Origin: Ectocarpus siliculosus
Taxonomy: Eukaryota; Sar; Phaeophyceae; Ectocarpales; Ectocarpaceae
Reading direction: 5' to 3'
Assembly: GCA_000310025.1 (NCBI GenBank)
Contig: FN648797.1
Location: forward strand, 1-41,406
Length of the DNA stretch: 41,406 nt
The position numbers were made by a program, and so were the translations under genes. Position 1 is the first letter of the stretch, and each line of letters opens with the position of its first letter. The notes under the pieces are model-generated. The model saw only the letters and a program-made list of their open reading frames with translations. It was not told where the DNA came from and searched no databases. Shown piece by piece: positions 741 to 31,429 of this stretch.

Positions 741-1016
741 CCGGTTGCAGAGAAACAAAGAAGGAAGAGATCGGACGTGAGCAAGAATCGATTTGCATCA
801 CTGTAGGACTTGAAGGAGTAGGGAGATTTCCGCCTCATGCGTTTGTGAAGACCTTCAAGTCGGTCTCTGAGGGCGACTGTTGCTATAACGTAGCCCGATG
901 CCGGGACACTAACAGCGTCGCGAATGAAGTAAAAAGTAGCCACCGCCAACACTGACAGAGGTTTCCTGAGCAAAATATCGACCAGCACCGTGATTCCGAC
1001 AGATGTCATCCAGCTT
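741..1016 (-). CDS. Terminal transmembrane exon, copy B (long tail)
   Basis: The acceptor before 1016 has the same one-base phase as copy A. It encodes ITVLVDILLRKPLSVLAVAT followed by an uninterrupted basic tail (ALRDRLEGLHKRMRRK) and a hydrophobic end (FLLTSDLFLLCF). A consensus donor (GTGAGG) lies at 739-740, immediately overlapping the TGA stop at 737-739, so the exon either ends there or splices onward to the left. Because the shared segment keeps its frame here, B looks like the intact version. A and B cannot both be included: the phases do not match, which points to alternative use. Confidence 0.6.
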
Positions 1017-1560
1017 CTGCCAGAGGGAATCCAGGGGAGAAAACAACGGCATGTGTAGGCGTCGTGTTGTAATCGTGTTGCCGCGCACTCGAGAAGGATA
1101 GATATATCATGAACGCGCCCTTAGCTCACCTGCGTACTATTATTGTACATACGTACATATGTATATGTACTCATGTCTCAGTCATCTTAGAGATCACCAT
1201 GGAGCAAGGCTCTGAAGTCACCTAGACTATTGTGTTGTACTTCGAAGTAAAATACGTCGAGTATATAATAGTGTGCAGAATACCTCAGGCAAACATGCAC
1301 CGGTCAACCATAGCAGCTATCGGCCACCGGTTTCCTGCCATCATCCCTTTCCGCCCACGGTTGGTACCTACTGTCGGCAGAGCCACCGGATTCATTCGTA
1401 CTTGAGAAATCTTCACACAGCCAAGGGTATGCGCGAAAAACATTACAACACACACATAGGCTTACTAATCGAAAATCGGGGTCCGTGGGGGGGGGGGGGG
1501 GCATGCACCCATGTATCCCCGGGTTTCCGCGGAGGCGTCGGCGCTTTGGCGTCCGGCTCT

Positions 1561-4368: not shown

Positions 4369-4537
4369 CTAAAACTTCCCAATCGGTCTCTGAGATCGGC
4401 CCTTGCCAATATACACCGTTCCCGGGACACGAGCACTATCACGAATGGTATTGACTGTGGCCACCACCAGCACTGACAGGGGCTTCCTGAGCACAATGTC
4501 GACCAAAACAGTAATTCCGGTCGCTGCAATCCAGTTC
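4369..4537 (-). CDS. Terminal transmembrane exon, copy A (short tail)
   Basis: An acceptor before 4537 leaves one base that completes the Arg codon begun at 5028, so the exon joins in frame. It encodes ITVLVDIVLRKPLSVLVVAT, a membrane helix with the 'D..xxxPLxVL' pattern of polycystin-type C-termini, and stops at TAG (4369-4371). Compared with copy B (741-1016), the frame shifts just before the shared LRDRL-like segment, so the tail reads RSQRPIGKF and ends. It may be a short-tailed alternative last exon or a decaying duplicate. Confidence 0.6.
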
Positions 4538-7500: not shown

Positions 7501-10500
7501 CGTATTTTCTTCAAGGAACATTTCCCCAGATCGGGGTCCCTGAAGGGCTACCATAGAATAGGAGAGTGGCTCATGTGGTTGGACTTCGAAAGGAACAAAA
7601 AAGCGATACACTGCTCGAGACACAACATCTCGAGGAGGGCGTTCAAAAGTTCAAAAAAGAAGTGAGAGGTTGCAACTTCTTGCCAACAACACTTCAACAT
7701 TTACGATGGGCCAGAGGAACAACCACACCACAAAAAATGCATCACGTACGATATTCTACCACCGCTGCAAATTGCCATATTCCCTCATGTCTGTCTGAAC
7801 GTCGAACGCGCCCTGAAAAAAGCTGGATTGCTCACCAAGGAAGAGGAGCCCCAGAAGCAGGCCCGCCACGGTAGTGGAGATTAGAGCTTTCTCCAGCTGG
7901 TCTTCGATTCCAATCGTTGCCGATAGCGCGACGCACACCAAATCGAGCAACATTTGCCAGAGGCCGGACCACACCAGGTTCCTTGGAGAAAAATCCGCGG
8001 GAGGAAGAGAAGGTGTAAGATCGAGAATGGCCTATTAGTCAAGACTGGTAGGAAAGGTCCGGCCACGGTTGGTTGGACCCTGCGGTTCCTGGCTTCTGAA
8101 TAGTCCCCAGGTGAACACGTAAGCAGGCACCCGCGGCGTAGAGCTGACCCAAACTGCGAGCAACATCTTTACATCTTCGCGTCTTGTTTCGTTGTGGGTG
8201 GCGTGGCATCACCGCAAGCTACATACAACACACGGTGGACTATCCAACCCTCCCAATATTGCCGCAGGCGTTTCCAAACTATCCCGCGCTCGTCCGACCG
8301 GAACTGCTCAACTACGCTGCCATTGGGTGTATCTCGCAGAGAATCATCACGGTGGGCTCCAGCCGGAAGTCTCGCCAAATGTTTGGTGCATCATCCGAAC
8401 CGAGATCACAATAGCAAACTCGCGCTGGAAGGGCCTCCAGGCGTATTCATTCCGTACGTCATCACTCGGAATGCTACTAATTTGGGTTTGTTGTAGCCAT
8501 GTTGGTGAAAAGGTACAGTATTCTGCTGAGGTCCGGCAAGCAGCCTCTGCCTGTTTGGTGTTTAAATGTGCAGGTCGTGTCACCCTATTCGTCTTCTTCT
8601 ACGACCAGACCTCCTGCCAGGGCTTGACTGCCGTCGTACTCACGTTCCACGATCAACAGCCCCACCCGTGGAGTACCGTCGACCCCCTCGGAATGACGGC
8701 GGCACTCGCAATGTGCTCCTCAACACCGCCGAGGAAATCAGACGAAAAACTGCCATCACCGTGTTCGGCTCCCGCAGCCACCTGCCCGTAAGAGGGCGCA
8801 GTGGAGTTGGTGCTGAACGCGATGTTGTTTTGTTGTCTCATCAAGCCTTGTCTTGTGTCTTTTACATTCAAAATCTTCCTCCAATAACTTTAGCCTTGGT
8901 GGAGTACGCACCGTTGGACCATTGGAAGAAAGAGCAAAACAGAAGGCACCTTACGTGAGGTGCAATGGGTACTGGGAAGTGGGCAACGCCACCACCATGA
9001 GACAGAGCACGACAGGGCCTGGCTTCCCACACGACTGGCGGTTTCCACCAAGCACCACCACAGATGAAGGCATACCTCGTTTGGGAGTTGGCCTTGGAAT
9101 TGGTCATGTCTTGGGCTGTTAGAACTTCTTGGTTCGTGGATGGGACAATCTGCAGAGATTGACGTTTGGGCGAACACGACAAACCAGGGCGTTGTTTGTC
9201 CTTTCCTCGGATGGGTACACTTCTTGAAACTAATGCGCACCACGATGTACACCGGTTGTTTATGACACGAGAATGCGTGATAGGATGAACTGCTGTCCAA
9301 CCAGCTCTTGTGCCCGGTACAAACATCTGAACCGCCTTGCATTCGGTGGAAAAGCGGCTGGAAAAGCGGCTGGAACACCGATATAACCGTGGGTTTACAC
9401 CGTCTTCTAGGTGAAGCGTTGATGCATTCCTTCGGTCTATTTAACACTGTTTAAACGGCTTGAACAAATTTCATCCTAGCGTGTTGTCTGAACCAACGGA
9501 CGTTTCCTCACCTTTTCCCACGCATGGAGCATTGTCACCGTGACCGACGGGGGGGGGGCAGCTGCAGTCGCGAACAGCTTGGGAATTAGGATGGAAGCCG
9601 GCATCGAAACAGCCAAGCTGCAAGGCAAACAACGTCAGGGTGAACGGTCGGCACGGCCGAAAGAGTCGGTATCGGCATCGAAGCCTCCAGCTGCAAGCAA
9701 TGTTTGGCCATCCTTAGCAGCTACAGCGTTGCCGTACGTGTGGTGGGTCAGCGCACAGAGACGGGCACAAATCCGCCATGGACATCCCAACACGTCTGGA
9801 GGCGCTGTGATAGGAGAGAGAGAGAGTACATTCGAGGCTTATCTAGCCCCCGTACGACCCACCTGACAACAACATGAAGCGCTCGTATTTTGTAGCTCGT
9901 CGAGTTTGCGACAAAACTCGCCTCTACCAGCATATGGACGAGTATCTGCGCAAAAATCAACAGGGACAGCTGCCACACAAGAACGGCGGGGCAAGAGCAC
10001 GACCAACGACAACGAAAGTGGAGTCTTCGGGTATGAAGTGCAAACGTCGGTGTCCTGATCCTTGTGGGACGGACTACAACCTTGGGACGGACTACAACCT
10101 CGGGCTATTTTTGTACCCGCAATGCCATGTTCTTCCACTGGACACAACCCACAGAAGTGCCTATTAACATGTGCATACGAGACGATTCCTCACGATTTGC
10201 CCACGGCACCTATGCTCGTTACAACCTGCCGCGGAAGCGAGGTAGCCAGGTCCGACAAAGCGACGTCGCTATGGCACTCGAATATCGGAGCCTCCAGAAA
10301 AATAGACATCAGCTGAACGGGGTAAGGGCATGACGTCTACATGGATGGAAGTGCAGGGCACGAACACGCAACCACCTCTGTTCCCGCACCTGTTCACGGG
10401 TGAGGGTTAGGTCCGAAGAGGACGGCGCCACAATGCCAAACCAGGGGTGGTGGCGAAGGACCAAGCGAAAGAAGCTTCGAATACGGCGCGCTAAGCTTCG

Positions 10501-13500
10501 ACATCTGTGGTTCAGCAGGGAAAAAGTTGGAAGCCTCAGACTACCGTCGCGCGGACCGCGTTGGTGAAGACTCTGAATGGCGAAATTGTGCCCTTGCCTC
10601 ATGTCTGTTGATAATATAGATGGCTGGCCCCGAATTGGGGTCGGTGTTTCGGCATGGATACCACACCGACCCCGAACCAAGAAACACACTTCTACACACC
10701 TGCTTTGTCTGTTCTCTTCGCAAATAGAGCACAAAGGCTAAGAAATCGGCTGTCGTGTTCGGTCTTGCTGATCTTTGCCAAATATGGTGTCATGAGTGGG
10801 CCTGCCCTTTGAAGAACACCGTCTTCCTTGCGCTGGTGGTGATTTTTCGACCCCCCTCACCTTTTCATCATATACTGCCGAACCGCCGTCTTGGCGCGTC
10901 TTTGCAACCGCCTTCTCGCGTGGCGGTGGTGCGTGTCAGGTGTCGGGTCCGCTTGGACCAACGCTGCCAAGGTAGGGCGATTCCGAGACTACCGAGGGGT
11001 TCATTCAAGAGTCACATTTCGGCCGGATGCGGGGAAGAGTGTTCGTCACGTGGAAGATCAATTCCGGGGGCATCATGTAGCAACAGGAGCAAGAGATCAC
11101 GCCATCCGCCACGCATGTACCACTCTCCGCATCAGCTCACCCGCAACCACGCACAAATGCTATTGTACAAGCAATCACCCCCATACCTTCCCGGTGGCTA
11201 CGTAGACCTCGTCGGTCTTCCTTGCCAACTGCTTGCTGAGGTTAGTCTTGACATCCGCCATTCTTGCGGTGGTGCGGAGGAGCACTAGCAGCAGCAGGAC
11301 AAAAAGCAGTAGCAGGCCACCCATCTTGGAGATTTCCCGCACCTTTAGAAAGACGGCTATCCCCGCGGTCTATGGTGTGATAAACACGTAACGTTTGGAG
11401 GTTAATTCACGGAAAACGGGAAACAAACAGACCGACGGGTTAACTACATGTACTCGAACAAGGTGCGTTCTGGTGGATATTGAGACATCGCAGCTTGAAG
11501 ATCAACCATGGCTCGCCAGGCAAAACGGCGACGTACGCGTGTTGCCTTCATGTTCGGGCATGCTCAAGAAGCGTGTCAATGGAACTGCACTATTTTACAC
11601 CCACGTCAACGAAGGCCTTGGTCTCTTTTCTCCCACCACCTCTGCTCCTCTCCGAGCGGATTCTCTTTGAGGGCCCATGTGCGAACCTCAATGATTCCGC
11701 ACTTGCAATGCTGGTGCGTCTGGGTTATTTCGAGAGACGTCTTGTTCGGGCTCTCACCAAGTCCACATGCTGAAAACCCGAGCCGACTTCGTCCGCAGAT
11801 ATTGTGAAGTCCGACAAGTGAAACGACCAACAGGTAACGTTCAAACCCGTTAGTCCATCCGCGTTGCTTTCGTCCATTGGCGTTATGGCGGCCTCGGTTA
11901 CTAGCCCATCCTCATCCCAGAGCCCGGTAATCTCGTTGTAGTACACGCAGGATGGGCTATTGGACAACGTTGTCGCCATTGAAGCCCTCATCGTCATTCG
12001 AACTGGTGCTGAGAGGGCAATATCCTGCGAGATGGGCGTCAAGAGTTTCGGCCAAGATTTCGGCCAAGATTTCGGGAATGCTGGTGACCGAGGCGGAGGG
12101 TGAGGAAATTTCCGGATGAGCAAACAGAGCGGGTGGTTTCCCCCCCTTGCAAGCAAGAAACTTCCTCGCAGACCATACCGCTCCGGCAATACCCCGTCAA
12201 CAAAATCGAAAGGGCCCGAACTACGCGAGAACGACCGGGCACACCTTGCTTTGGATTGACAACAAACGTCGACTGCTCTGTACCTAAGCAGAATGAAGCC
12301 TGTCGGGCTCCGACTTTAACCTATCCAGGCGCTTTTGTAGACCATGTATTTGTCTGGTACTTGCAGCTTCATACCTGGCCTCCACTTGAGGTGGTGATTG
12401 TTATGCTCGATACCCCAGCATCTACTTGGCTTGATGGTCTGCCATTGGCGCTGAACTGTAGGCTGGCGATCGTTATTGTGGCTGACGCCGTCGCAATCGA
12501 GTCCATCCGGCGTCGTTGCAAAATGCGACCGTTGATTATTCGGCCCGCTGAACTAGAGGATGAGGTCGTCATTCGTCTTCTTCTCCGTTGCACGCTTGTG
12601 GGGTTTATAGCACCCTCAGGAACAGATACCGATAATGAACCTGATCGAATGGCATGTGGTCGAGCAAAGTGAGCAGATCCTCTGAGTGCTAGCACGGATG
12701 AGGGTAGTTAAAAAACCCTTCAGTGTCGCTCCATGTTCCTTGACGATGATAGCAAAGCACGCGCCCCTCGCCTAGCGCCATTGGGCGGTGTCAACGGATG
12801 AGGGCAAGAGAGACATCGTCTCACCAGCGTCGAAGTCCATGGCCGCGGTCTTCGAGGTGACAAGGCCCAGCACATCAATGAAACTGTTCCCAATGAGTGC
12901 CGCGTCCTCTCCGTCTTCCAGGCTTGATGTCATCAGTAGCGCCATCGATCTCACCGTTTCCGGCAATCTGCTCAGGCAACAGGTCGTTGGGTGTTCGAAA
13001 TCAAGATTGGCCCGAGGTAGGACAACATCGCAGCATGCTTGAGCGGAAAACGTTTTCTCCATTTCAACGCCCGGATCAGTGCGAGACACCGTTGTCAACC
13101 ATTTCCATCGAACGGATAATACTGCGAAAACAAGTGCCATGAACCTCGATCACGCTCGTCCCTGGAAGTGAATCGGGTGCGTTTCGGGAGAAACGACCGA
13201 CATATCCCGAAGTCCCTTCTACACCCTACTTTTTGAAGCCGAGATGCGATTTTCACTTACAGTTCGGCGGCAACATCACCGAGCTCCTCTCGTCCCACAA
13301 CTCCAGGTGAAGAAGCGTTGTATCCGCCGATGACGTTATCAAGTAGTTCGAGGGTGGGGCTGAAGGAGTCCGAATCCCAGGACTCCTCTTCTAGCGCACG
13401 CTCCAGTACCCCAGCGGACAAAGACAGAATCGCCTCCTGTTGATGAAGTTCACGACAAGTGAAAACGAGGCTTGAGGAGCACCAGTTGATCTGGGTTAAC

Positions 13501-16500
13501 TTGTCGTCTCTCAGGCACCGTTGAACCTTCATGAAAATGCTTGCACATGAGATGAAGCGCGCTTAGAGGGGCGAATCGATCGTCTTGGATGGGTCTTTTT
13601 GGAAATGGGCACAACCAACGATAGCATCCGCTACGAAAGGGAAATATCTCAACAACGGCCTTCCGAAATTATGCGGAACCGCAACGCAGTTCAATCTCGT
13701 TCAGCATCAGCGGTAGAGTGGTTGTGCCGTCAGTCATCGCGATTCTAGGCATGCGGTCATGTATTGACGGATGACGGTACGAGCGCGGTAAGAAGGCAGG
13801 GATTCCTTGGAATCAAACGATCAGGCAAACAACGCATATTGTAGTCGACGCTCTACCACATGTGCGTTCACTACCATGGGAGATGATGACAAAAATTTCG
13901 CACCTGCGAATCCGATGTTCGTAGGTTTTCGCTCCCTGACACCAGCACCATCGCATCTAGTAGTGCCCCCGCGGTCGTTGTGGAGTACTCCAACACCTCG
14001 AAGTCACCCGCTGTGTCTTGAACCATGGTCGCCATCAAACCCTTCGGATTGGCGAAAAGGTAGCACGGCAGGACACTCGAGTAGTCCGGCTTAGATCTGT
14101 GTGGTGCGTAGTCCTCCTACAGACCACCGGCAAACGATATGCGGCGCCGACACACATGACCAATGCCACCGAAATGAGGACAACATCTCGACTACAAGCT
14201 CACCTGGTACAATGCAATTTCCTCTGGGACGTACGGAGACGCATCCTCGAATTGGTCCACCAGTAAGGAGGCGTACGCCCGGACAGTTGATGTTGCTTCT
14301 CCTGGGGTGTCGGCGGTCTCGTCATGTGCAGCCTGGTAGGCGTCGATGATTGTCTGCACACCAGATGGGTCGGTGTGATTAATCATATGATGCATGCCTC
14401 TGACGAGCCTTTACACAGAGAATTTACCTACAACAACACGCCATCAAGTCTCTCGTCATTCTGGCGCGTCGCGATCAAGCCCGATTGTCCGTTGAACCAA
14501 AACTTCCTAACGTTCAACTACCACACAATGTTGCTGGATGATCGTCATAGTGCAGCCCCCCCGCGTGGTTGTAGCCATCACCAGTTTTCGCACCCAATAA
14601 CGAGGAGGTGTACTACACACTGTGTTTCGTCGACTAGAATACGCAAAGTAAAACTCATGTCCTGTACGTATCGGATGCTTAATTTCACTTACAGCATCAC
14701 CGTTTGAAGCAGTCCAACCAGTAACCCGAACAGTCACCGGCGACCCAATGGCGTCGCTTGTTGACACTGCCGTTGCCCCGAAACTATCAGATACATGGCC
14801 TGTACATTGTTTAGCGTGCGGAAGGGCAGGTCACACATGCCCTGGCAAGAAGGGGAGTTGTCCTGCTTCGGAGGGGTACGCCTAGGGACGTTCGAGAGTC
14901 GCGTCATTGTCTGCACTGACCGTGAAATACGTTGAACGTCGGGAAAGGGTATTCAGACCACGCAGAAAGGGCAAACGCTGTCAGGGTATCGTTGCTAGTT
15001 TCGCCAATCCAGTCTACAACGATGACCGTCGCGGGTATGACGTGCGAATGCAATACAATTTACGCCGGTGGCAGGAAAAAAAGAAATCGTAAGGAGGGAA
15101 ACGAACAGAACTTCCTAGAGTATCCACCTTTGATCAACATCGTGTAGTTGTCCGACGATGGGCCGAGAGGCAACGACCCTTGCCACTCCGGCAATTCCAC
15201 CGCGAACACGGAAAGGCTGCGTTGCTGGCCGCTTTCCTCCTGTGGTGAAGACACGAAGAAATGACTCCGCTGCGATCGACATACTGCATATCAGACCCAG
15301 CACGCAGCGTGTCTATCCACAGGTCCGGAAACAAAAGGCATACACAATCAGTGCCCACGCCCGTGCCTCTCACGGAATACTCCACTGCACACGTGCCATG
15401 ACCTCGTACCTCGACAACGCTACCCAAATCCTTCGGCCACACTGATCCCGTACGACCCCCGCGTTTTCCATCATGCCTGCATTATGAAAGTCTACATTGC
15501 CTCAGCAACCATTTCCCTCGTGACCATCTCCGTCGTGGGCTTCTGGAACATCCATCCTCGGTACCACTATGCGTTTTCTGCCTAGATGCTATCTGGTATC
15601 TGTGTTGGGCATCGCGCAGCAACGTCGTTGTGTTTACCATCTTCTCCATAGTGTGATAATCGAATGGTCAATCTCTATGCTGTACCAAATGAAGCTGCAT
15701 GAGCATTATTGTACCTCATTGTTGTACGAAAAGGAGAACAGTAGTGGGAGGTCGTCCACTTCGTCCGTCCAATCTAGACTCTCCAGCACAAACGTATCGA
15801 TCGCTGCGACTCCCGCCCTTGGAGAAGCAACGACGTGGCCCCCAGTGGGGGGCGCGTTTATTGTCAACGTCATATCCGCAAAGCCTGAAGGTGGTTGCAG
15901 GACGTGCGGAATCGGGTATCGTGCTTCTGGTTTGGTGGCGGAGAGGGGTTGAGGTCCTAACCGGACAATTTATCACGAAAATAACTCACTCAACCACGAC
16001 ATCAGTTAAAGCCCACGGGTACGCATCGCAAATCGAAATAGTCAAGCGACTTTTCCAAGATCCAGCAGAAACAGCGCAGCCTAAACCATTTTGAGCGATG
16101 CGAGTGGCAATACACACGAGCGAGTCTTCGGCAGGCGTATCAATCTATTCCCCGGACAGTAGGACCATTGTCACGCCCACCTGTTGCTTGGGAAGCCACG
16201 TCCGTTGCTGACAGGCGAAAGGTATAGGTAGATCCACCGGTGAGCAACCCTCTTGGGATCACAAGGTTGGCCCTGGATTGTCAGTACGAAGCACGGAAGA
16301 CCCGGTCAACGTCGGTACAGCGAACCTCCCAAATGAAATGTAAAAGGTGTTTGGAGAGCTGGTTGTGTCAATGAGGTTCACGAGCTTTCGTGGTTGCCGT
16401 CGCTGCGGTCAAACCACGATGTCGAACGATTTACGCAACGCATATACATACGAGTCGTTTGTTCTCACCCCGTCTGAGCAGTAGCGAAAACCGTGCTCCA

Positions 16501-19500: not shown

Positions 19501-22500
19501 GTGAACTTCGCACAGAGTTTAACGCACCTCCACGGTCATTGAGGCGCTCGCTTCGGACAGCTGCGAAGTCGCAGTTGCGGCAAAGAGGTAGCTGGACCCC
19601 GGATAGCCCAGGGTGTACGCAGGAAACGTAATGGCCGTAGGATCGCGCTGCGCTAAGCCCTTCGAGTTTGCGTGAAGCGGAAAAGGACAAATTGTCGAAG
19701 AGGTTACCCCTCGCCAACCATCCAAAAAGGAGGTGGGGTGTGGGACAGCCTGCTTGCCCTAGAAGCAATCATCTAGAGTCTGTTTTTTTCTCAGTGTGAG
19801 GAATCAACCAGAGTGAAGCAGCACGAGAAAACAAACACGTGCCACGATTCCCACCGCTCTGGCCTAGCGCAGGTTGTATACTACCGTTAACGTATTTCGC
19901 TTGCGCTTCGCATAGCACAAAACGTATGCCGAGTGAGCCTCCTTCGCCTGCTCTGGACAGCGGTATTGTCGGCGTTCATGAACATGCGGTGGCTGTGCCT
20001 CAGCTACCGTAGAATCTTTGTTTTCAGCATGTTCAGCGTCCTGATGTCAGCAACCGTCAGTCGGATGATTCCAGGACGAGCGGGCCGTCATTCGTGATTC
20101 ATTGGAACGTGAAGCGATGGCGTGAGGATGAACCCGCTTGTCGTTTGTCTTGCATGTCTCCTCCCATGTTCACGAGGCGAACACGATGAGTGCGTAGCCA
20201 CAGACATGCAGAGTTCTTTGGGTTGGAACCAGAAAGGCGGGAACAACCTAAAATCCGTTTGGTGCCTCGACACGGTGGCGGCATTGTTGACCATGAATCC
20301 TGGATGAGTTCAGATCGTTGTAGGTGCCTCTCGTAGCACAAGCCTCCATCCGCGTGAAAAGCGCGTGTCACCGTGGCATGCAACCCACGGCATTGCCACG
20401 GCATGATCCTCAACTCATTTGATCAAACAGAGTAAATCAACTAGTCTCGACTCCATCAACAGTGGGTATGCTATTTTTTTGCTCTGCCGTTGTGGTTGCT
20501 GGAAGGAAGAACGCCCACTATTTTTTTCTTCCATCACCTGAAACACTTCAGTACCGATTTCGTCGTATCCAGCTCCACCAACTTCGGACCACGAATGATT
20601 GAGCTGCTGCCTTTCGCCTGGACATAGTGGGTTTGCGGGCGAGTCCACGAAAATGGCGGAAGTGATGCAGAGACGCCCTTTCTCGGGCAACAGTAGGAGG
20701 CTAATAGCGGTCAAGGAGGGCGTCTCGCAATTTACGCCGAATGGCGCTCTTCCTCAATTTCAGTGTGGGCGCTGACAGCGTGTACAGTCGAGTAGAGTGT
20801 TTAGTGGGACGCGGGGTGCCGGGCAACTAATTTCGAGCTTACCGCACGCCGGTGATGTTGCTGTGATCCTCAGGGAGGTTGGCCGGCTCCTCTTCACAAC
20901 TCGTGTTGCTGATCCAAGAACTGCAACCGACGGTATGTCCTCGGCTCTACAGAGCAGGTTTGCAAACGCAACAACATGCAAGGGTTGGAAAACTGTTAAA
21001 GAGCACGTGGCTGTCATTTGCCTCGTATTGTCTAGGAGTCACGCGAAAAGTAACAGTATCGTGGCCGATAATCTCCCGAAGGTGAAGCTGGTTCGTTCGG
21101 GTGAGTCGTCGACTTTTCCACGGAATTCTCCAAAGCACCGCTGTTTTCATCTCATGGAAACGCGGAAGTGTGGTCTGTAGTCGACATGACTCTGGTGTTG
21201 GAGCACACCCGTCTCCCACGAAGGCGTTCTGGAGGCAATCGCTCAAGAACTCCTTCCAGGATACCTGGTACCAGGGTACCACATTCCGGAACAGCCCATA
21301 CTGCAAAGTCGAAAATAGAATCACATCTCAGATACACATCTCACATTCTCGTGACGGCGACAGTTACTCCGTTCGTGTCGCCAAGGAAGTTCCCCACGGT
21401 CAGGGCAAACATGAACTTCACCCCGGGCTCTAACGCAGCTGCGTCGAGTTCTGCGACCAGAGATCCTTCAAACAACGCGAGAGCAGCCTCAATGCTACTC
21501 GTGTTGGCGACAGACGCGGCCGAAACGTTCCAGGACGCCGACATCGTCCGCGAAAGTGCCCCTGAGGACGCCCGTCCGTCTAGCGTGAGCGTGCCGCATA
21601 ACCCCACGGTCTTGGTGCACCCAGCAGAATCGGTCATTACATTTGTGGAAAGAATGGGGACGACAGCGGGCGTTGAGGGTTGGGAACGGAGTTTCGACAT
21701 CTGTGTCACTGGCTTTCATGCACGAGGCCCCCTCGTGGGTATGCGTGTGGTTAAGCGGTTTCTTTCTGACACAGCGGGGTCCTTCCCTCAAGCTGTCAGG
21801 AGAGCACGACTCGGTGTACTTCAACCTGTGTGACAACCGACAAGCTCTTTCGAAGAGTCGTTCCAACCCTCGGAAAGGCAACTACAACTCGCTTTGGAAG
21901 CCGCACGTTGTTTCTTGCCAGCACAGTTTTCAAAAGCATGTGAGTGCTTACGCCACTATCGCGACACTGTCAATATATATATGCATAGTGCTGACAATTA
22001 GTACCTCGTTCACTTTTCATGCTTCAAGACCAAAATCATCATGTTGCATGACATGCGTATACTCCTAAATCCACGTCCTCGGGTGGGCATTGTTCCATAC
22101 ACAATGGTGCCAGGCCAAACGTCTGACGGCTATACCTGAGGGGCTACCAGGACCGCCGATACCGCAGGAGGGTTCTCAGGGACCAACACTGGTGTGGAGC
22201 CCTCGGAGGAGAGAACAGCTAGTGCCTCCGTGCGGACGCCACCGTCGAGAAGGCTTATGCAGGAAGCCTGGCTCAGGCATGACACTCCGGAGCCCGTGTC
22301 CGGTTTGACTATTGCATCGTAGCCGATGGCTATGGTCAACTCTCGCTCCCCCGTCCATTCGCCTGGATGAAAAATGAGGACATAAATGTTTCGGACACAA
22401 CCAAAGGAGAGGTTTCCGTCGCTGATGCTGAAACTGATGAGACACACCTCACCAAAAACACATCCCATCCTGCATAATGCGCGACAGGTATGAGCGTTTA

Positions 22501-25500
22501 GCGCTTGCACGAGGCCGCCCTGGAGTGACTAACCGAGCACGGAGTGCTACTTGCAACGCAAACCGTGAACAATAGTATCCACCCGAGCGGGAAAATGGAC
22601 GGTTCTGCGCTCGTCAACGTGATTGAGTTACGCTTGGTACACCCTTCATTTGCAACGTTGTACAGAATGTAACATACTCACATGCTGCCCCTTCGCCGAT
22701 GGTGGCAATCGAGGATGCATTGAGCAGCGCTTTGCACGACCCCGGGCCGCTTCCTGATGCGGTGTCGGTGGCGTTCAGCAGCCCGCTACTTGCTGAGCTC
22801 TCGGGTGAAAACGCGACGATGATCGATTCCCCGTCGTTTGAAAACATGGCCTGCTTGCGTTTCACAAGTACAGGTCGCGGTCTAGCATGAAGTACATATC
22901 GCACAGACCGCCAGTGTTGAAATATGGTAGGCTAGAGGAATTCGGGGTCGGCTAATGCTTACGAGATACTTCAATAAAGGACGCGTGGTTCTCTGCAGAG
23001 ACATGAACCAGACAATGTGTGAAACACGTGCTACCTGGAGCAGCTCGGGCGGGGCGGTACGGGCTTCGAGAGATACCGTTCCTGTGGCATACTCGATGAC
23101 GCCGTCCGACACCGACGGGATCCCTCCAAGAATGTACCTGAACCGAGGTAAAACGTTCGGAGGGACCTTCATGTGGCATCTGGGTCGTGGCACATGTGCA
23201 CGTACACTATTCATTGGCATCGCCTTCGCTCCACCGAGAGCGGCGGGGTGAACAAGCGCATGGAAACACATGAGGCGAGTGTGGCAACATTAAGCCCATG
23301 TGCCTAATAATACAAGAGGAATGTGGGCCCACCCGTCGTCTATGAGTAACAATGACCGCCTCCGTAGCGCATGAGGTGGGGTGGGGTGGGGTGGGGTGGG
23401 CGCGATGAATGCCAAACGTTTCGCATACAGGAAACATGGTGGTTAAGTTTGGTCAGAATATCACCAAACGTCTCGAACGAGGGCATCGGAGTCGAGGCTC
23501 GTCTTACCCGTAACCATGTGAACCTTCGCTGTGAAAAATCAAAGGATGCATTCCAAGACCTTTAACCTCACCCGCCGGCTAAAGTGATGTTGACTCCGGC
23601 ATCCCATGAGCCGGCATACGCTTCATCGAAGGTTATGAGTGCCGTCAAGCTGTCTTCCGACCAATCGCACGTTGACTGGTTTCCGAATGTCGTTCGAGTG
23701 TCCTCGTCGAGCACTTTCTCGACGTCACACCTACCACGCATCCAGATTATGCACCAGAACGAGGAAGTAAATGACGAAATAATGCGTTTGCGTTCTGGTA
23801 ATCGCTCACACGCCAGTTTCGGCACATGATCAAGATGTGCTCCTGATTGTCGAATCTGTCCAAACGAGAACTACCAGAGATCGATCGAACACCACATCAG
23901 GTGCCGTAAGATCCCCACGGATGCCAATACGGAAACAAAGACATGCATTGTCCAGTAGCAGTCCTAAAGGTACGCTCACAAAAGGAATAACTATTTCCAG
24001 CAGTACGCTTGTCAGTATCGGTTACGACTCACGGGCTCTATTTCGCACTGAAAGGTACCCAGCACAGCTCTCCGAAACAAGAAGCGAGAACCGCAAATGG
24101 AAACAGTGGACAAAATGGCAACGAAGTTATTGAATCCTCTCACCCTTTGTCATACTCCCCCGAAACGATGTCGTAGCCGCAGAGTGCCACATTCGCACCA
24201 CTCCAGCCGACCTCAGTACAAAAGCATCTACTGCTGAACTGCAGGGAGAACGTCCTTTGCGTGTCAGAGAGCACGGCAGACTCGAGGTTTGGCGCAGGAA
24301 GCAGAACAGCCACGGCTGGGCCACTCGTGGGCAACGGCGCTGATGTCGTCGGAGCCAACGTTGGTCCAGGTGTAGGTGTTGAAGTGCCTTCACCAGGCGT
24401 TGGCGCCGGCGCTAATGTGGGGGGTCTCGTGGAAGGGGCCGGAGTTGGTCCAGGTGTAGGTCTTGGAGTGCCTTCATGATAACAAATTGAGCAACACGGC
24501 GCAAGTAGTGGTCCGTCCGCCAGAACCTCTTAAGGGTTATCCTGAAACATGCGATAGATTTAGGAATCCCAAGTCGTGGAGCGCCTTTTTCGAGGACAGC
24601 ACTCGACACGGCTTTTAGACGGGCATTCCCATGGTTCACTCGAAGTTGTTATCCGTCTTTCTATCTTGTCCCTAGCCTGCTGTTAAACCCTGCGTTCGTT
24701 GTTATTTGAGGTATTTGAGCAATTCTGCCCGCCCATTCGACGACTCTCCCTGAAACGACTTCCACAAAATGTTTACCTTTTAGTCTCAGCGACACCAATC
24801 GTGCCCTGTTTGAAATCTCGCATGACGTTATCGAGATAGCAAGCTAACCGTTCCGTTGCGAGTGTGTTCATCTCATGTCTCGGCGGTGGTGTTCCTGCGT
24901 TCGACAATCTCCTAGGAAGAGCGTTTCCGGGCGGAAACTGCGCCAGTCACTCGAGTTGTTCGTTGGTGGCCGAAAGAATAATACAACATCGACGCGCCGA
25001 CGGCTCGAAAACGAATCTTCAACTATCAAATCGGTTGATATTAGCGACGAGCCGCAAAATCGTGTAGCAAACCAATATCGAACCCTCAATGAAAACCGAG
25101 CGCATGACGACGATTTCGGAATGCACGAAACACTAAAACCAAAAGGCGAACCGCGAAAAACGCTCTCAGCTGCAGGTATCTACAGTCGAGCCTGCAAAGC
25201 CTGGCTCTGCCTATAAGGTGGAACAAGCGCTGATACCTTCACAGATAGGCACACAGCACACCGCATGGGGGCAGGTTTGAGCAATATAGTCACGTGCAGA
25301 GAATGCCTCTACGAGACCGAAACCAACTTACCGACGGGTGCCGACGTGGGGCTCTCAGTGGGCGACGGTGAAGGAATAAGTGTCGTCGGGAGCGATGTCG
25401 GGCTCGGTGTCTGACACAGCGAGGATGTCCATTGGAGATTGATTTGTGGTCGGGTAACAACAGATAATTGCGAAACCCGGCACCGGACGTTGATGAGGTT

Positions 25501-28500
25501 AGTTAGTCTTCCAACAGTTTACCAATTCGTAATCGGAACAAGAGGATGTGCGTGCCTGCCAGCTGCTTGTCACGCTGACTAAGTACGGGTGCCGTCGGTG
25601 CTTGGGGGGTGGAATTGATCGTACCGTGGGCACTCCAAGGCGAGACCGTGGCCAATGACTGAGGTTGGCTCAAATCAATCGAGACCTTTCGTTTTCATGT
25701 TATCTTGAGTATACCTGGTCACCAACTTCGAACGTGAGCAGCCGTTCTCCATCAGCCACCTGATAGGACATGGAAGGCATGAGACATGAGCGATTCAAAA
25801 TTGGTGGGCCGGCAGAAAAAATACCAACTTCAAGAGTACCAAACATCGGCGGCGCTTCAGGACATCGACTAACAACCCATCGATTACAACGGACGACGGG
25901 TTACACGCATACTTTGCCAAGACGGGCTTCGGATGGAAAAAATGGGACCTTGACTGCTAGAGAAGAGTGACGAGGCATCAGAACACGCGTTGTGCAGAAC
26001 TGGAACAAGAAACACTCCACATGTAAGAACTGGATGGTGACCTGTGAGGGTAGGTAGCTCCAACACCTGCTCCTACTGTACGTTTGTGGGATTCCTGCAG
26101 TCGTTGGATATGTTGCTTCCCGGTTTCACTACTGTCATGCCGTAAAACGTTTCGTTCTGTCATGTCGTGAGCTAGGGAAGCCTTTTCGACGATTCCTACA
26201 ACACTCGAAAATGATGCGTCGAAAATATTTCATGCGTCACTCACGAAAATGTGGTTTCCATCCGGTGACGGCAGCAACCTGTTATACGCGTCCGGTTCGC
26301 CTGTGGCGACGCTGCATATCACCGACCCACTGCATGATAGTCATCATCGGGAACGAGGTACAGTCAGGAGAAACGTGCTGGTGTTGGGGGTGCCGCAGTG
26401 CTCGACAACAAATCCCTACACAAATGTCAGACGTGCTGGATGCAAATTTTGCCTCTCACAGGTCACCATCCGGAGTCCTAGCGTGCTGGAACAGATCCCC
26501 AGTGGCTTGGTTAAGCCCGTAAAAGATCTGCGCAGAAGATTAGCAGAGAGGCATCCAACAAGGAGTACACAGACACCAGACTTCAGGCGTACTGACTGAT
26601 CATTGATAGATCATGTGGGATGCTGGTGTGGTGGCAAGCCGTGGAGTTGCCGACCTGTACAGTATACGTATCCCTCCACGTCAGGGGTTGGCAGATGCTG
26701 ATGCAGGCATCGCTCGGGTTATCCGGTCACCGACGACAAGACGTAAGTTCCAGCGGGCAAAAGCAAGGTCCCCGGAAGCGTACCAAAATTCGAAAAATGC
26801 ACGATGCGCCAAAGGCGAAAGCCACAATGAATCTCTGTACATACCCTTTCAATGCGCCAAACATCATAGCTCCGCGTTTAAATGACCTTGCCCGAATCTA
26901 GGACGACACTGATGCAAAGAGCGGAGGGCATGAAAAGAGGTATTTCAAGCCCAGCCAAAAGCCAGCATGTCGTGGTATGCTGCATCTCAAAAATGCAAAT
27001 ATGTAATCGTACATTCCCAAGATCCAGCAGTCATCATGTCAGCAGCCAACTACCCAGCAGCAACATACACGCGTCCTACACAATACCACACGTACCCTCG
27101 CCCGAACATACGTAGCCACTGATGCAAAGGTAGATGCGTGTTGGTGTGCTTGTGTGCTTGTGGGAAAACACACAGGAGCTCTATTTGTGAGTCGGCAGGG
27201 CTCACATTGAGGGAGGAGGTATGGTTTTTCAAGCCGTATCATAGATCATGCTCATAGATCATTTGAAGATACACTGAAAAAGAGTAGTTTAGGCAGCTTG
27301 ACGACCGATATATTCAAGGTATACAAGGTCGATCTGCCCGACCGGCCGCCCCGCGACTACCCATCAACCCTTCGATGACCCTGTCTGTGGCCACCACCCT
27401 TTCGCGGGCTGCCCTCATGACATCCCAACCAACCCCTACAACCGTGTAGAAAAAAATCAACGCGAAGCGGCTCGATCGGTTCATTTACGCTGCAGAGCAA
27501 GGGTATCCCGAGGCTAGGGTCTACCCCATGAACTCCTCGCGGCATTTGCCGCCCCCTCTCCCCTTCTTTGATAAGGGAACGAATAAAGACAACAGAACCT
27601 TACCCAAGGAGAAGAAGGGGGATCCAAACAGGTAGGTTCCTTCTCACCGTGCCGTTGGGGCTGATGGCGACTGACGTGTAGTCCGCAGGCTCAACCTCGT
27701 CGCTGAAAGAATTCCCGAGCAGTAGCGTGCCGCCGTTATTGGAGCTGTCCAACATCACGACGTTACCGCTCAACCCCTCTATATAGACCTGGGTGGGTGA
27801 ACAGGGTGGTGGTCGGGACAACAAAGGAACAGGCAGTGGAGGTGACGAGAAGATAGATCAACTCCATGAAAACGTGCCAAGCAAGATTGCGGGTTAAGCC
27901 ATTCTACCGATGGTCAGCTGGTGACGAACGGAACTAATCCGAGCGAAAGCCGGTGAGAACACGGCGACACCGCCCCAACCGCTGCCTGAATGTCAAACGG
28001 AGGAGCCCATGCTTGCAACCTCACCCCTACCGAGGTCGGCGACACAGCGATGTACGAAGGCCTAAGTATCTTGCTCGGGATCTTCGTGATCGATTGTATG
28101 GACCCGGTCAGTTCATCTTGACCCACGCTGGCGCCGACGTTGAACACCTTCACGACCAAGTACGACGACACGAGTACCTGCGTCGGCGAGCGCATGACCA
28201 GGATACGATCAACGCAACATAGCCAGCTGCTTGTAGGGGTAGGGCATGCATCGTTTCGCTGAGCTCGGTTTCACCTTCCAGACATCCAAAGATCCAGTGT
28301 ACGGTAGGGTAGGATATCGAACTACCACGAATGCCAGTCCACGAGCAGGAAGAACAGGATTTTTATCTGGAAGTGCGACAAAACATAACGCAGCAGTCAT
28401 GCAATACTATACCACGTAGTCCCCTGTTGGATCGGCATTGGCGGCGGTAATGGCAGCGTTGGATACTTGATCAAAATATTGCAGATGCCCGTTGTTCTTG

Positions 28501-31429
28501 CGCTCGAACCGGTAAATGTCGCCCTCATCCACGGCAACCTGGAGTGTCACGGATAACAATCAACTTCAACACGTTGCATACTTTTATGTCCAGTGGCTGG
28601 ACTACTGCTAGAAGTGCCCTCGTTTCGCAAGAAGCACATCAAAACGAAACAAATGTGGTCGCATAGCCTGCCTTACACACGGGTTAACTGTTTGTGCGCT
28701 GCATGGGTAAGATAGGCAATGGTCAACCGTGTCCTGCGACGGCTGCAACACCCCGGACGACCGTTCACGCATGCATCGGTGGGAGAAAGTCCGTCAGCAT
28801 AGGGCCGCTGCATACTCATTCCGCGCCACTCACAAGCAGAGTATCGCTGGATGTCATGCCCAGGTAGAGAAAGTTGGTACTTGAACCTATGTCGTCTTCG
28901 TTGATAGGACTAGACGAAGAACGAGAACAAACGGGCGGTTAGTGTTTGTTTGTGCTGTGTGCAGTGGTGTTGTAGTTGGCCTCGCTGATGTTGTTGCAGT
29001 GACAATACTGGAAGAGCACCTCCAGAAATGACCGCACGGAACGATATCCACTGTCGATTCAGAAACAAGGCATTTGAAGGCCTAGGGATGTGTACGATCG
29101 ATGAGTCATTGTCAATAATATGGGTATTGTTTTTTCTGGTGTCGCGTGTGAGCTTCGTGAGTTCTACAATCTCGATGGTTGGTGAGTGCACGCACCGTGC
29201 ATGCTAGCAAGAGAACCCTCCCCCCTGTGCGTACGATAATGACAGGTTTGGCCTCAATATAATTTCCTGCTTCAAGTACCACGGCTCAAAAGCTATGCGC
29301 AATGTGCGTTGCGCAAACTTCTCCAACCATGAAACGACGCAAGTACTTCAAACGTCATGTACACGTGCGAAGGACATCATCAAGAACGTTTGGGGGGCGA
29401 ATCGACTCTCCGACGTGAAACGTTCTACCGATGTACCCAGATATGCCCAAGCTACTGACCTGGAGATATCCACTGTTTCGAACGAATATATTTTCTTGGA
29501 GCGGAAGCAGTGCGGGGCAACGGCCAACACACCCCGGTCATGATGATTCCCGTTGAAACGTTCATTGCGCCGGCCGCATTATGCGGTCGCGTCGGATTCG
29601 GACGGCAACCAAAACGACGGGGGGGAGGATGCGATAGTCTTGGAGATCTTCATGAGCTTGAGGGGGGGAAAGCCTGCACAGTCGGGGGGAACGTCAGTCT
29701 CTAACTCCCCAACAGCATGGGTTGGTACATACTAGATCGATATCGATGGTTGGGTATTCGCCAGAAACCTAAATTTCCTGTGTCGGCTCTCAAGTCTTTA
29801 CTGCCCACTCCTGCCTGATTCGCCAGTTCAGCGCAAATCTCGCAGCAAGTTGATAAACGATCATTCATGTAGCCTGGATGGGTTGTGAAGGGAGTCAACA
29901 ACCCTGGCTACTCGAGGCCAGCAACAGCGACATCTAGTCAGATTTTTCCTGGCGCAGGTGGGGGAAAAGAGTCAATGACTTCGAGGCTAACAGTACCCCC
30001 AGGTCAGCGGACAGTACTCACCGACAGGACTGGCAAAACGATGTATATGTTGGTTCCATCGAGGCTCGTTGTGACAGCAGACGCATACAAGGAAGCGTCT
30101 TGCGATTCGTAGGTGTATTCGCTGACGAGAGTGAGCTGGCCGTTGGGGTTGACGTCGAAGCTTCTGAAAATGTAGACCGGATCAGGCCCTTCATCGATTG
30201 CCGTTGATATCAGCTGCAGTGATGACGGGTGGGGGGAACATGCAGCCTGAAATGGCCTTGTCTCTGTATTCGAGGTGATATTGCAAAGGTGATACCGTTT
30301 CCCGAATGACACCGAGAAGATAGCGGTAAGGAGTTGACGTTACCGGGTTGTTGCTTAGATGTTGCCTCTGTTCATCCAGGCAACCTACACTATATTGAGA
30401 ACCTCGCGGCCCACAACTATACTTGACATCAAGGTGTTTTTTTTTTTTAGAACGAACGAATGGGTTTCAACACGAACGATATTTCTGCACACGTGTCTGA
30501 CGGTTTGGTGGTCCCTTCTGATTGGGTAGACATGCCGGGGATAAAAATAGATGATATCTGCGTCTCTCTCTCGCTGTTCTTGTGCATCGACGGAGGTTTC
30601 CTCCCCTTACGCGTTCGTACCGAAAGGCCATCCGGTGTGATAGCAAGCCTGTCATTTGGAGTGTTGCCTCCTGTCAAGACCGAAGAAGTTGCGTTGGAGA
30701 ACCTATTCAGGTGATCGACGCAACGGAGAATGTGGGCACAGAAAGGACGGAGGGAACGTGATTCCGTTCGAAGACTACCATCGGGTTAGGCAGTCCTACT
30801 CTTAGCAGACTGAATAGCAGCGCATGTATGCGTGTCACATTTAACCTGTGTTGCTCACGTGCATTGAGCCGCCGCCCGCCTTGCCGTCCATCCACAGGTA
30901 AACAACAACGCAGTGGCCCCACGGTAACCAAGTACCCGTGCTGTCCCTGTCATCATAGCTCGGGCAGCAGTGCGTGTACGGGTATTCCCTGCCGGCGCGC
31001 AACCCGTACACTAGGTAGGGTTAGGCAGTCCTGCTCTTAGGGCGTAGAAATTCTTACACACAACACAATACATAGTCTATCGCTGTATTCAAACGACGAC
31101 ATTTCCAACGACGCTGGAATGCGTATCTGCACTGCTGTAGCACGGAACCCACTTGTCACTCCTTCAGCCCCATCAGCAAGCAGCCTGGCTTCAACGGCCG
31201 CCACAGCAGGGAGGTTCGTGCCGTTTTCCCCATGGGTTCCTCAGTGCACGTGCCGGGGAGGTTACTTTACAGCAGTACAGCAGTAGAGGCGAACGGTCGC
31301 AATAAAATGGTCGCTAACGTTTCATGTCTACAGCCACAGTGCCGTGACGTCACTGTAGTGGGCTAGGCGAGAGAGGGTGGAACAGAGTAGTGGAAGCAGG
31401 TGGCGATGGAGGGACCCGAGAGACTGCAT
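4369..31429 (-). CDS. Giant multi-exon receptor: beta-propeller + REJ + GAIN/GPS + multi-pass membrane domain (polycystin-1/PKDREJ-like)
   Basis: This gene has about 54 exons, rebuilt by hand; every proposed intron is GT...AG on the minus strand and codon phase is kept at each junction, giving about 2300 codons. The order is possible signal peptide, propeller repeats (about 1-415), Pro/Thr/Ser hinge (about 420-500), REJ-type ectodomain (about 500-1350), linker and GAIN-like region with a GPS near residue 1709, TM1 (about 1735), then a multi-pass membrane region with an IQ motif near 2165. Known REJ/GPS proteins such as polycystin-1, PKDREJ and sea urchin suREJ are surface receptors linked to Ca2+ signalling and gamete interaction; a similar role here is inference. 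I see no PLAT domain after TM1. Both ends are uncertain: the first exon is a weak call and the last exon has a second copy at 741-1016. Architecture is confident; a few splice sites may be off. Confidence 0.8.
5028..11342 (-). CDS. Multi-pass membrane domain with IQ motif
   Basis: Exons 11187-11342 (TM1, GGLLLLFVLLLLVLL), 10861-10988 (basic cytosolic loop), 10390-10504 (RHHPWFGIVAPSSSDLTLTR), 9863-9969 (LLIFAQILVHMLVEASF), 9539-9617, 9076-9149, 8644-8781, 7836-7981 (two helices), 7099-7298 (long hydrophobic exon), 6641-6691, 5527-5675, 5339-5417 and 5028-5155 (TM, CLIVFTASVAWINLCYVVMY). About nine helices are visible before the last exon. The 'HxW...TR' loop before TM2 is also found in polycystin-1-like proteins, but the PLAT domain expected there is absent. 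Exon 5527-5675 has AAVKIQTLVRMYQAHQR, an IQ-type calmodulin-binding helix. I cannot show a pore; channel function is not claimed. Confidence 0.75.
11758..14353 (-). CDS. GAIN-like region with GPS autoproteolysis motif
   Basis: Exons 14204-14353, 13904-14041, 13261-13436, 12825-12967, 12375-12640 and 11758-12024. The first five encode a helical, acidic region (for example LERALEEES) ending in a strand-rich part with SVSVPEGAI. The sixth contains a GPS: a Cys and a Trp, then LNVTCWSFHLSDF, where His-Leu/Ser would be the cleavage site near residue 1709. GPS motifs sit at the end of GAIN domains, and in adhesion GPCRs and polycystin-1 self-cleavage leaves two non-covalently bound fragments. The usual C-x-C-x-H-L-T is C-x-S-x-H-L-S here, so one conserved cysteine is missing. 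TM1 follows about 25 residues later, as expected. Confidence 0.8.
14693..19306 (-). CDS. REJ ectodomain, second half
   Basis: Exons 19240-19306, 18756-18822, 18216-18321, 17443-17538, 16831-16965, 16326-16384, 16181-16272, 15715-15884, 15374-15441, 15128-15216 and 14693-14799. Motifs run in REJ order: VEQGVLRANIQGGEFR, NDLVLDGSDSVDDDD, YEWWC, IYEFFLNVSK, ANLVIPRGLLTGGSTYTFRL, MTLTINAPPTGG, then a stretch rich in W, D and FSFSY, and finally VSDSFGATA with SPVTVRV. The 'N-x-PP-x-GG' and 'DSxGA' signatures are characteristic of the C-terminal part of the REJ module in polycystin-1 relatives. The split at 16273-16325 implies an intron of only 53 nt and is the weakest join; exon 15374-15441 is also less certain. 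Confidence 0.8.
19528..23730 (-). CDS. REJ (receptor for egg jelly) ectodomain, first half
   Basis: Exons 23572-23730, 23035-23137, 22682-22850, 22136-22362, 21345-21700, 20843-20946, 20538-20617 and 19528-19659 (or starting at 19647). Family-like motifs include FSNDGESIIVAFS, a Cys-Glu-Trp-Thr block, LDGRASSG followed 14 residues later by SWNVS, RPTSLRITATSPAC, LNHSWSEVGG and ITFPAYTLGYPGSSYLFAAT. REJ modules alternate 'xLxLDaSxSxG...xxYxWSV' with 'LxLPAxTLxxGxxYxFxxxA', and both halves appear in order. One of the phase-1 breaks falls inside a cysteine codon and restores Cys exactly on joining 22682 to 22362. The region would be extracellular. Confidence 0.82.
23375..23400 (+). repeat. GGGGT simple repeat
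   Basis: About five GGGGT units inside the receptor intron between exons 23035-23137 and 23572-23730. On the plus strand it could form a G-quadruplex; on the transcribed receptor RNA it is a CCCCA tract. Confidence 0.7.
24144..25410 (-). CDS. Pro/Thr/Ser-rich hinge and start of REJ ectodomain
   Basis: Exon 25332-25410 encodes 26 residues rich in Pro, Ser and Thr (for example PSPSPTESPTSAPV). Exon 24144-24471 continues with TPRPTPGPTPAP and a second TPTPGPTLAPTTSAP block, then becomes a globular sequence beginning VAVLLPAPNLESAVLSDTQ, as at the start of REJ modules. Such low-complexity segments are usually O-glycosylated stalks between extracellular domains. A nearly exact 32-bp direct repeat underlies the two PTPGPT blocks, so the hinge probably varies in length. 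Confidence 0.78.
24361..24474 (-). repeat. 32-bp direct repeat inside the hinge coding exon
   Basis: Two nearly identical 32-bp units about 80 bp apart encode Glu-Gly-Thr-(Pro/Ser)...PTPGPT. This is an in-frame coding duplication in the Pro/Thr-rich stalk. Confidence 0.6.
25715..26527 (-). CDS. Last propeller exons of the giant receptor
   Basis: Exons 26460-26527, 26245-26329 (or starting at 26311) and 25715-25759. The first reads IFYGLNQATGDLFQHARTPD and ends in phase 2; the second contains LLPSPDGNHIF, a typical propeller 'SPDG' turn; the third is a 15-codon exon reading VADGERLLTFEVGDQ. Phases 0-2, 2-0 and 0-0 link them without a break to the preceding propeller exon (27648) and the following hinge exon (25410). 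The start of the middle exon is ambiguous between two AG acceptors that keep the same phase. Confidence 0.62.
27648..31239 (-). CDS. Beta-propeller exons, N-terminal part of the giant receptor
   Basis: Exons at 31062-31239, 30621-30702, 30022-30213, 29460-29494 (35-nt microexon), 28834-28909, 28413-28538, 28031-28177 and 27648-27788. They carry repeated blade-like motifs: LAITPDGLS, DPVYIFRSFDVNPNGQL, KIYSFETVDIS, VAVDEGDIYRFERKNNGHL, SYIAVSPTS and TSVAISPNGT. The pattern 'xxxVSPDGxxVYV ... IxxFxxxxxTGxL' is that of seven-bladed lactonase/YVTN-like propellers. Several exons begin and end in phase 0, roughly one blade strand group per exon. The domain would be extracellular if the signal peptide is real; its ligand cannot be read from sequence. 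The most upstream exon (31062-31239) has no ATG and was recognised only from its open frame and fitting splice phase, so it is the least certain. Confidence 0.7.
30783..31040 (+). repeat. Pair of 23-bp direct repeats
   Basis: GGGTTAGGCAGTCCTACTCT at 30783-30802 (continuing TAG) recurs at 31018-31040 with one change. Both copies lie in the intron between receptor exons 31062-31239 and 30621-30702. Origin unknown. Confidence 0.5.
31354..31429 (-). CDS. Proposed first exon with short signal peptide
   Basis: An ATG at 31429 opens 25 codons with a hydrophobic stretch (LLPLLCSTLSRLA), then a GTGACG donor after 31354 in phase 1. That joins in frame to an acceptor before 31239, across an intron of only about 114 nt. 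The choice rests on phase, on the hydrophobic start expected for a protein with an ectodomain, and on the nearby divergent gene, which leaves little room further upstream. The donor is not a strong consensus, and another upstream exon is possible. Confidence 0.35.

Follow-up and report, generated by a model that had tools for sequence, protein, structure and literature searches.

The stretch of DNA analyzed here (the window) is 41,406 bases long and makes up the entire contig C251 of a 189-Mb assembly. On its minus strand, a single intact gene that encodes a surface receptor of the PKD1/REJ type is predicted. Our hand-curated model places 51 exons between positions 30956 and 4369 of the window and encodes 2,254 amino acids; all 50 introns are GT-AG, and the frame is kept at every exon join (Table 1). 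An earlier note on this DNA had described more than 50 minus-strand exons in consistent phase. The exon number and the single frame stand, while the 5' limit that it gave, 31429, moves to 30956. The note had also taken the source for a probable alga, and it is indeed a brown alga, with all 150 scored EsV-1-7 matches (880 first-look candidates in the genome) over the Pfam cut-off. Exact matches to Ectocarpus primers place it in Ectocarpus or very near to it.

Table 1. Features of the predicted receptor gene and related sequences. Positions are those of the window unless a contig is named.
Feature	Position	Strand	Basis or remark
Exon 1: start codon and putative signal peptide	30859..30956	-	Model; homologous first exon in paralog C
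Exons 2-11: beta-propeller-like head	25715..30702	-	Collinear in A, B, C; hhalign; exon indel deficit
Exon 12 and 5' part of exon 13: Pro/Thr-rich stalk	24320..25410	-	
Rest of exon 13 and exons 14-20: cysteine-containing ectodomain, stalk to REJ	20538..24319	-	No Pfam name
REJ domain, Pfam PF02010, amino acids 882-1205	15135..19596	-	E=3.3e-43
Exons 33-38: putative GAIN-position region, ending in GPS	11758..14353	-	By position only
GPS, PF01825 match	11955-11800	-	
HL/S cleavage-type tripeptide	11820-11812	-	
Exon 39: TM1	11187..11369	-	Hydropathy; conserved in window and paralog alignment
Exons 40-41: short basic linker at the PLAT position of animal PKD1	10390..10988	-	No PLAT match
Exons 42-51: TM2 to last TM	4369..9969	-	No PKD_channel match
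IQ-like motif, weak, intron-split	5570-5189	-	
Stop codon	4371-4369	-	Exon 51
Second, diverged last-exon copy	887..1030	-	58% amino acid identity to the real last exon; in C9 too
Bridging exon, paralog A	C9 1073978-1074294		
Bridging exon, paralog B	C9 1106644-1106969		
Bridging exon, paralog C	C9 1156835-1157160		Strand aligned
Expanded stalk repeat, C9 copy	C9 ~368897-370104		Inside stalk exon

The first gene finder called too many small exons, and exons were then picked by conservation in paralogs and curated by hand. Because paralogs guided this choice, similarity to them is no independent proof of each exon boundary. Closer to independent are dN/dS and indel tests against a copy of the gene, either the other haplotype or perhaps a recent duplicate, that lies at C9:344878-379305. 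This copy is collinear with C251, with ~91-99.8% identity per kb within the gene, and has identical splice dinucleotides at 50 of 50 donors and 50 of 50 acceptors. Between the two copies there are 77.5 synonymous and 115.5 non-synonymous changes, for an overall dN/dS of 0.50 (Fisher p=3e-6; codons adjoining the repeat in exon 13 are possibly misaligned), and reading these exons in the wrong frames yields values of 1.01 and 1.23. The sole exon indel between the copies falls in the stalk repeat of exon 13. Across the propeller half, 1,065 exon bases hold no indel, where 8.4 would be expected from the 33 indels in 4,192 intron bases (P=2e-4).

The match to C9 ends upstream of the gene, near 34.2 kb of the window. 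Positions 34400 to 38400 look like mobile or repeat DNA, since C343 carries a 98% copy and dozens of other places match in part. Beyond the 3' end of the gene, at a distance of 3.3 kb, both copies carry a second version of the last exon (C9:345765-345902 in the C9 copy), which we read as the trace of a partial tandem duplication or as a neighboring family member.

C9 also carries three paralogs one after another, with A at ~1.064-1.093 Mb, B at 1.099-1.136 Mb, and C at 1.146-1.173 Mb. Our models of these, and of loci E, F, G, and H described below, are rough and include false exons. Exons of A, B, and C are collinear with those of the window gene from the propeller onward and, in A and B, up to the last membrane exon. 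The first exon of C (1145588-1145667) has an equivalent donor end and the same phase as exon 1 of the window. In all three paralogs, a single open exon runs from the final strand of the propeller through the Pro/Thr stalk into the beginning of the REJ-side ectodomain. One exon likewise covers the end of the propeller and the start of the stalk in E and F. Because of the bridging exon in the three C9 paralogs, we assign propeller and REJ to one gene, and the phase fits at every join. The single protein proposed in the earlier note is thus upheld, and separate genes for propeller and REJ/GPS, the main objection raised there, are very unlikely given the paralog exons.

Taken alone, the window propeller is recognized weakly. 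Pfam returns only a WD40 match (E=0.099), with no match to the Lactonase profile in the propeller piece, and the matches in the PDB are also weak, five of the six being to the WD40 protein LST8 (E ~0.25). A profile built from the window, A, B, and C retrieves three weak PDB chains, none of them a propeller. Relatives on other contigs were compared with the seven-bladed beta-propeller family Lactonase (PF10282; cut-off, 21.7 bits), using selected exons joined and trimmed by hand. F (C26) scores 29.1 bits (E=7.4e-7) and E (C26) 22.6 bits (E=7.1e-5), both above the cut-off, their propeller pieces being 95% identical; G (C15) stays below it (12.0 bits; E=0.12), as does the window propeller, and paralog C has no match. 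The joint profile of E, F, and G finds 20 PDB sequences at E<=0.1, named as WD40 repeat proteins, designed repeat proteins, and other propeller proteins, with no single stretch passing alone. Aligned with hhalign, the window-group and E/F/G propeller profiles match at E=1.2e-4 (probability 55%, 78 columns). Since the paralogs are collinear, the profiles align, and E and F pass the Lactonase cut-off, we infer by homology that the window head is propeller-like. The model may lack a propeller strand between exons 8 and 9. The lactonase-like N-terminal propeller of the earlier note finds backing in E and F; the propeller call that Pfam makes on the window itself is the weak WD40 match.

REJ, GPS, and a multi-pass membrane domain follow in the order that the earlier note had given. 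The REJ domain is clear in the spliced protein (148.4 bits; cut-off, 25). The GPS reaches 22.3 bits there (E=2e-4; cut-off, 22.5) and 26.5 bits, above the cut-off, in an exon-by-exon profile search of the genome. HL followed by T or S is a cleavage-type motif, and an HLS tripeptide is present at the GPS of the window gene, A, B, C, E, and G. The genome search for GPS at E<=1 finds eight places, with the window and the C9 copy over the cut-off and G below it (18.4 bits). The same search gives no match up to E=1 at the GPS of A, B, C, E, or F, and that of E has none in a joined piece of selected exons either. Because the profile misses them, the GPS call rests on alignment and HLS in A, B, and C and, for E, also on a published report (PMC4700764). 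Further GPS matches above the cut-off lie on C15 (three; C15:4846-4921 kb) and C21 (one; C21:2106 kb), and additional family members are likely.

After the GPS there are eight strong hydrophobic segments and possibly a ninth, by a simple hydropathy threshold that three weaker segments of the ectodomain also pass. Pfam finds neither PLAT nor PKD_channel in the spliced pieces of the window gene at E values up to 5, in agreement with the earlier note for PLAT, and we reject an embedded PKD channel or PLAT domain in this gene. A profile search of the genome for PLAT gave no match, nor did control sequences. PKD_channel has eight matches in the genome, all on other contigs. Three of these fall within 40 kb (C16:6600-6639 kb) in a possible cluster of PKD2-like channel genes, which are potential receptor partners. 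A profile of the membrane part (window, A, and B) finds no polycystin in the PDB. Because the membrane part matches no solved polycystin, we limit kinship with PKD1 to REJ and GPS; the last membrane hairpin may resemble that of PKD1. The IQ-like motif is matched at E<=1 in three of three members of the membrane alignment, the best at 0.04, below the cut-off. Pfam gives no match to 7TM_2 or another 7TM family, whether for the window gene (searched up to E=5) or for the three members of the alignment (up to E=1).

A REJ profile search of the genome gives 14 matches, which group into 10 loci, or nine if the window and the C9 copy are haplotypes. Nine of the ten were inspected, and the tenth locus (C15:4851515) lies outside this count. 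Propeller or propeller-like exons precede REJ in eight of the nine (C251, the C9 copy, A, B, C, E, F, and G); no propeller was found within the stretch inspected for H (C2:8056-8072 kb). We therefore reject the idea that the domain order is an oddity of the window. By eye, the upstream exons of H encode repetitive beta-helix-like sequence, NFTTPAPTAIG repeats, and EGF-like cysteines. A further fragment with a GPS region, D (C9:386-396 kb), is absent from the REJ matches. In F (C26:1089-1109 kb), three exons joined together give a WSC domain (E=6.7e-12) after a likely signal peptide seen by eye, and there is also a sub-threshold LNR-like stretch (E=0.02). Its head is richer than that of the window gene, with a likely signal peptide, WSC, propeller, LNR-like stretch, and repetitive stalk before REJ. 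E shows, by eye, the end of a WSC-like sequence very similar to that of F; in the window gene we saw none.

Proteins with REJ, GPS, and several TM segments are already in print for brown algae, as male-gamete-specific PKD/REJ-like proteins (PMC4700764, PMC3879662), so that this part of the possibly undescribed domain order in the earlier note is not new. PMC3879662 reports five REJ-like proteins as male exclusive in Ectocarpus and is the source of qPCR primers for one gene, Esi0130_0068, with a 147-base product. Both primers match C26 exactly, with a product of 147 bp as published, at locus E (C26:1051-1077 kb), and no second place in the genome is listed for the 20-base primer when up to two mismatches are allowed. 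As the primers fall on C26, the window gene is not Esi0130_0068. PMC4700764 describes Esi0130_0068 as a male-gamete-specific protein of 1,427 amino acids, with a 976-amino-acid ectodomain containing REJ and GPS, 6 to 7 predicted TM segments, and positively selected sites in or beside REJ. Its authors state that the protein lacks a lectin domain upstream of REJ, and the main text uses neither the word propeller nor the word lactonase. Upstream in the Esi0130_0068 locus, however, are propeller and Pro/Thr stalk exons. Counted back by hand from TM1 in our rough model, 976 amino acids end near exon 46 or 47, past the stalk, and the published model therefore apparently begins after the stalk and lacks the propeller head. 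Esi0130_0068 thus resembles the window gene in REJ, GPS, multi-pass membrane part, and upstream propeller and stalk exons, and the two belong to the same family. They differ in locus, in the WSC-like end at the Esi0130_0068 locus, and in TM count, which is 8 to 9 by simple hydropathy for the window gene against 6 to 7 in the paper's prediction.

The propeller has the highest amino acid divergence among the ectodomain parts tested. Between the window and the C9 copy, it carries 46 non-synonymous and 17 synonymous changes, compared with 26 and 34 in ecto-N and REJ (p=0.001); the excess is weaker when ecto-N, REJ, GAIN, and TM are pooled (62 and 49; p=0.034). The propeller ratio is also higher in three of three paralog pairs (p=0.003, 0.0005, and 0.036), counted on the 4 propeller and 12 other exons whose ends could be set in A, B, and C alike. 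Its dN/dS is 0.87 between copies and 0.41 to 0.54 between paralogs, which points to a coding sequence under some constraint. Positive selection on the propeller is not claimed, as 0.87 is not above 1, and relaxed constraint accounts for the excess as well as selection does. Several observations count against a propeller that stands out: its half of the gene is the more diverged overall between the copies (introns, 0.066, compared with 0.043 in the two stretches that follow), the GAIN and TM parts also have high dN/dS on few changes (0.72 and 0.96), and the selected sites published for Esi0130_0068 are those in or beside REJ. Among the paralogs, the exons of the GAIN/GPS region give a dS of 0.04 between A and B and 0.33 to 0.36 between either and C, and the pairs split differently elsewhere; this may perhaps reflect gene conversion between A and B.

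The stalk differs between the copies in length. Its 84-bp (28-amino-acid) Pro/Thr unit is present about once, plus a variant, in the window and in ~3.6 and 7.2 copies on the two sides of a run of N in C9. This run is probably an assembly gap, and because it lies there, the frame of the 880-base length difference is unreadable.

Several features of the window gene recur in animal proteins. Sea urchin SpREJ proteins and human PKD1 also have REJ and GPS before TM1, a multi-pass membrane part in most cases, and WSC in some members, namely human PKD1 and SpREJ6, 7, and 10 (PMC1934368). Five of the ten SpREJ proteins have no PLAT, whereas all five human members do (PMC1934368). Because of these sea urchin proteins, loss of PLAT is unremarkable, and the earlier note's reading of it as a departure from animal proteins does not hold. 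In PMC3652789, the egg-jelly receptor is mentioned in the reference list only. Animal members differ in that they begin with C-type lectin, PKD, or EGF domains, and human members in that they have PLAT and, for the most part, 11 TM segments that include a channel region, neither detected in the window gene. The window gene shares with adhesion GPCRs (class B2) and other GAIN/GPS proteins a GPS with HL/S just outside TM1, and autoproteolysis at this site, as in adhesion GPCRs, is likely. In contrast to adhesion GPCRs, it has no 7TM family match and combines 8 to 9 hydrophobic segments with a REJ domain. The word propeller does not occur in PMC1934368, and a search of open-license PMC full texts, preprints excluded, found no report of a propeller in the PKD1/REJ family. 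Thus, of the domain order that the earlier note considered possibly unreported, only the propeller/WSC head and its family-wide order look new, and WSC heads as such are known from PKD1 and SpREJ6, 7, and 10.

We favor, as the probable joint explanation, one gene for a PKD1/REJ-type receptor with a propeller head, a ligand-triggered mechanism, and a role in gametes. The architecture is near certain, and our confidence in mechanism and setting is moderate. The mechanism is modeled on that put forward for polycystin-1 and adhesion GPCRs, in which cleavage is combined with a tethered agonist, as described for polycystin-1 (PMC9672506). The propeller-like head would reach out on its stalk and bind a ligand, probably a glycoconjugate of the partner cell. 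The GAIN/GPS region would cleave itself at HL/S, and ligand binding or a pull on the head would then shift or remove the N-terminal fragment, exposing the new N terminus (SDFTIS...) to the membrane domain. A second message would follow, likely calcium through a separate PKD2-like channel. Our best guess for the setting is gamete recognition or adhesion, which we favor because the gene is kin to the male-gamete-specific Esi0130_0068 and because five REJ-like proteins are reported as male exclusive. Recognition of gametes by the window gene itself is plausible.

The same architecture could instead serve adhesion, wall integrity, or mechanosensing in cells or flagella, with a long, variable stalk setting the reach and a WSC/propeller head gripping the cell's own wall or matrix. 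The WSC domain of F, the strong difference in stalk repeat number between the two copies, and the discussion of polycystin-1 as a mechanosensor (PMC9672506, PMC1934368) are consistent with this reading. We nevertheless consider it possible rather than likely, since the closest studied relative is specific to male gametes and has sites under positive selection (PMC4700764), and since five REJ-like proteins are male exclusive (PMC3879662). We also consider it improbable that the gene in the window is itself non-functional, be it a duplicate in decay or an alternative haplotype of its C9 counterpart. The collinearity of this 41-kb contig with C9 at high identity and a TM-part dN/dS of 0.96, on only 19 changes, would fit such decay, but the 51 exons contain no stop or frameshift, and the overall dN/dS is 0.50. 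That two adjacent genes were wrongly joined, across a 1.2-kb gap with one small exon between the last propeller exon and exon 13 and in a model built on genomic sequence rather than transcripts, is highly improbable in view of the bridging exons of A, B, and C, the exon shared by propeller end and stalk start in E and F, and the fit of phase at every join.

Returning to a gamete receptor with a propeller head, these results give a corrected picture of the REJ family, with ten loci in one genome. To our knowledge, no gamete-recognition receptor has been identified in brown algae. One published candidate is a male-gamete REJ/GPS protein, and its locus and relatives carry an N-terminal head (a propeller, with WSC in F). 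This head, whose rate of change exceeds that of the remaining ectodomain in the genes tested, is a concrete candidate for ligand binding. We tentatively propose that the REJ/GPS proteins of brown algae may be receptors for gamete recognition whose fast-evolving propeller head, in some with WSC, on a Pro/Thr stalk of variable length takes the place of the lectin heads found on the sperm REJ proteins of animals. If this is true, the recognition surface would lie outside what the published study of the male-gamete gene, apparently done without the head, has covered.
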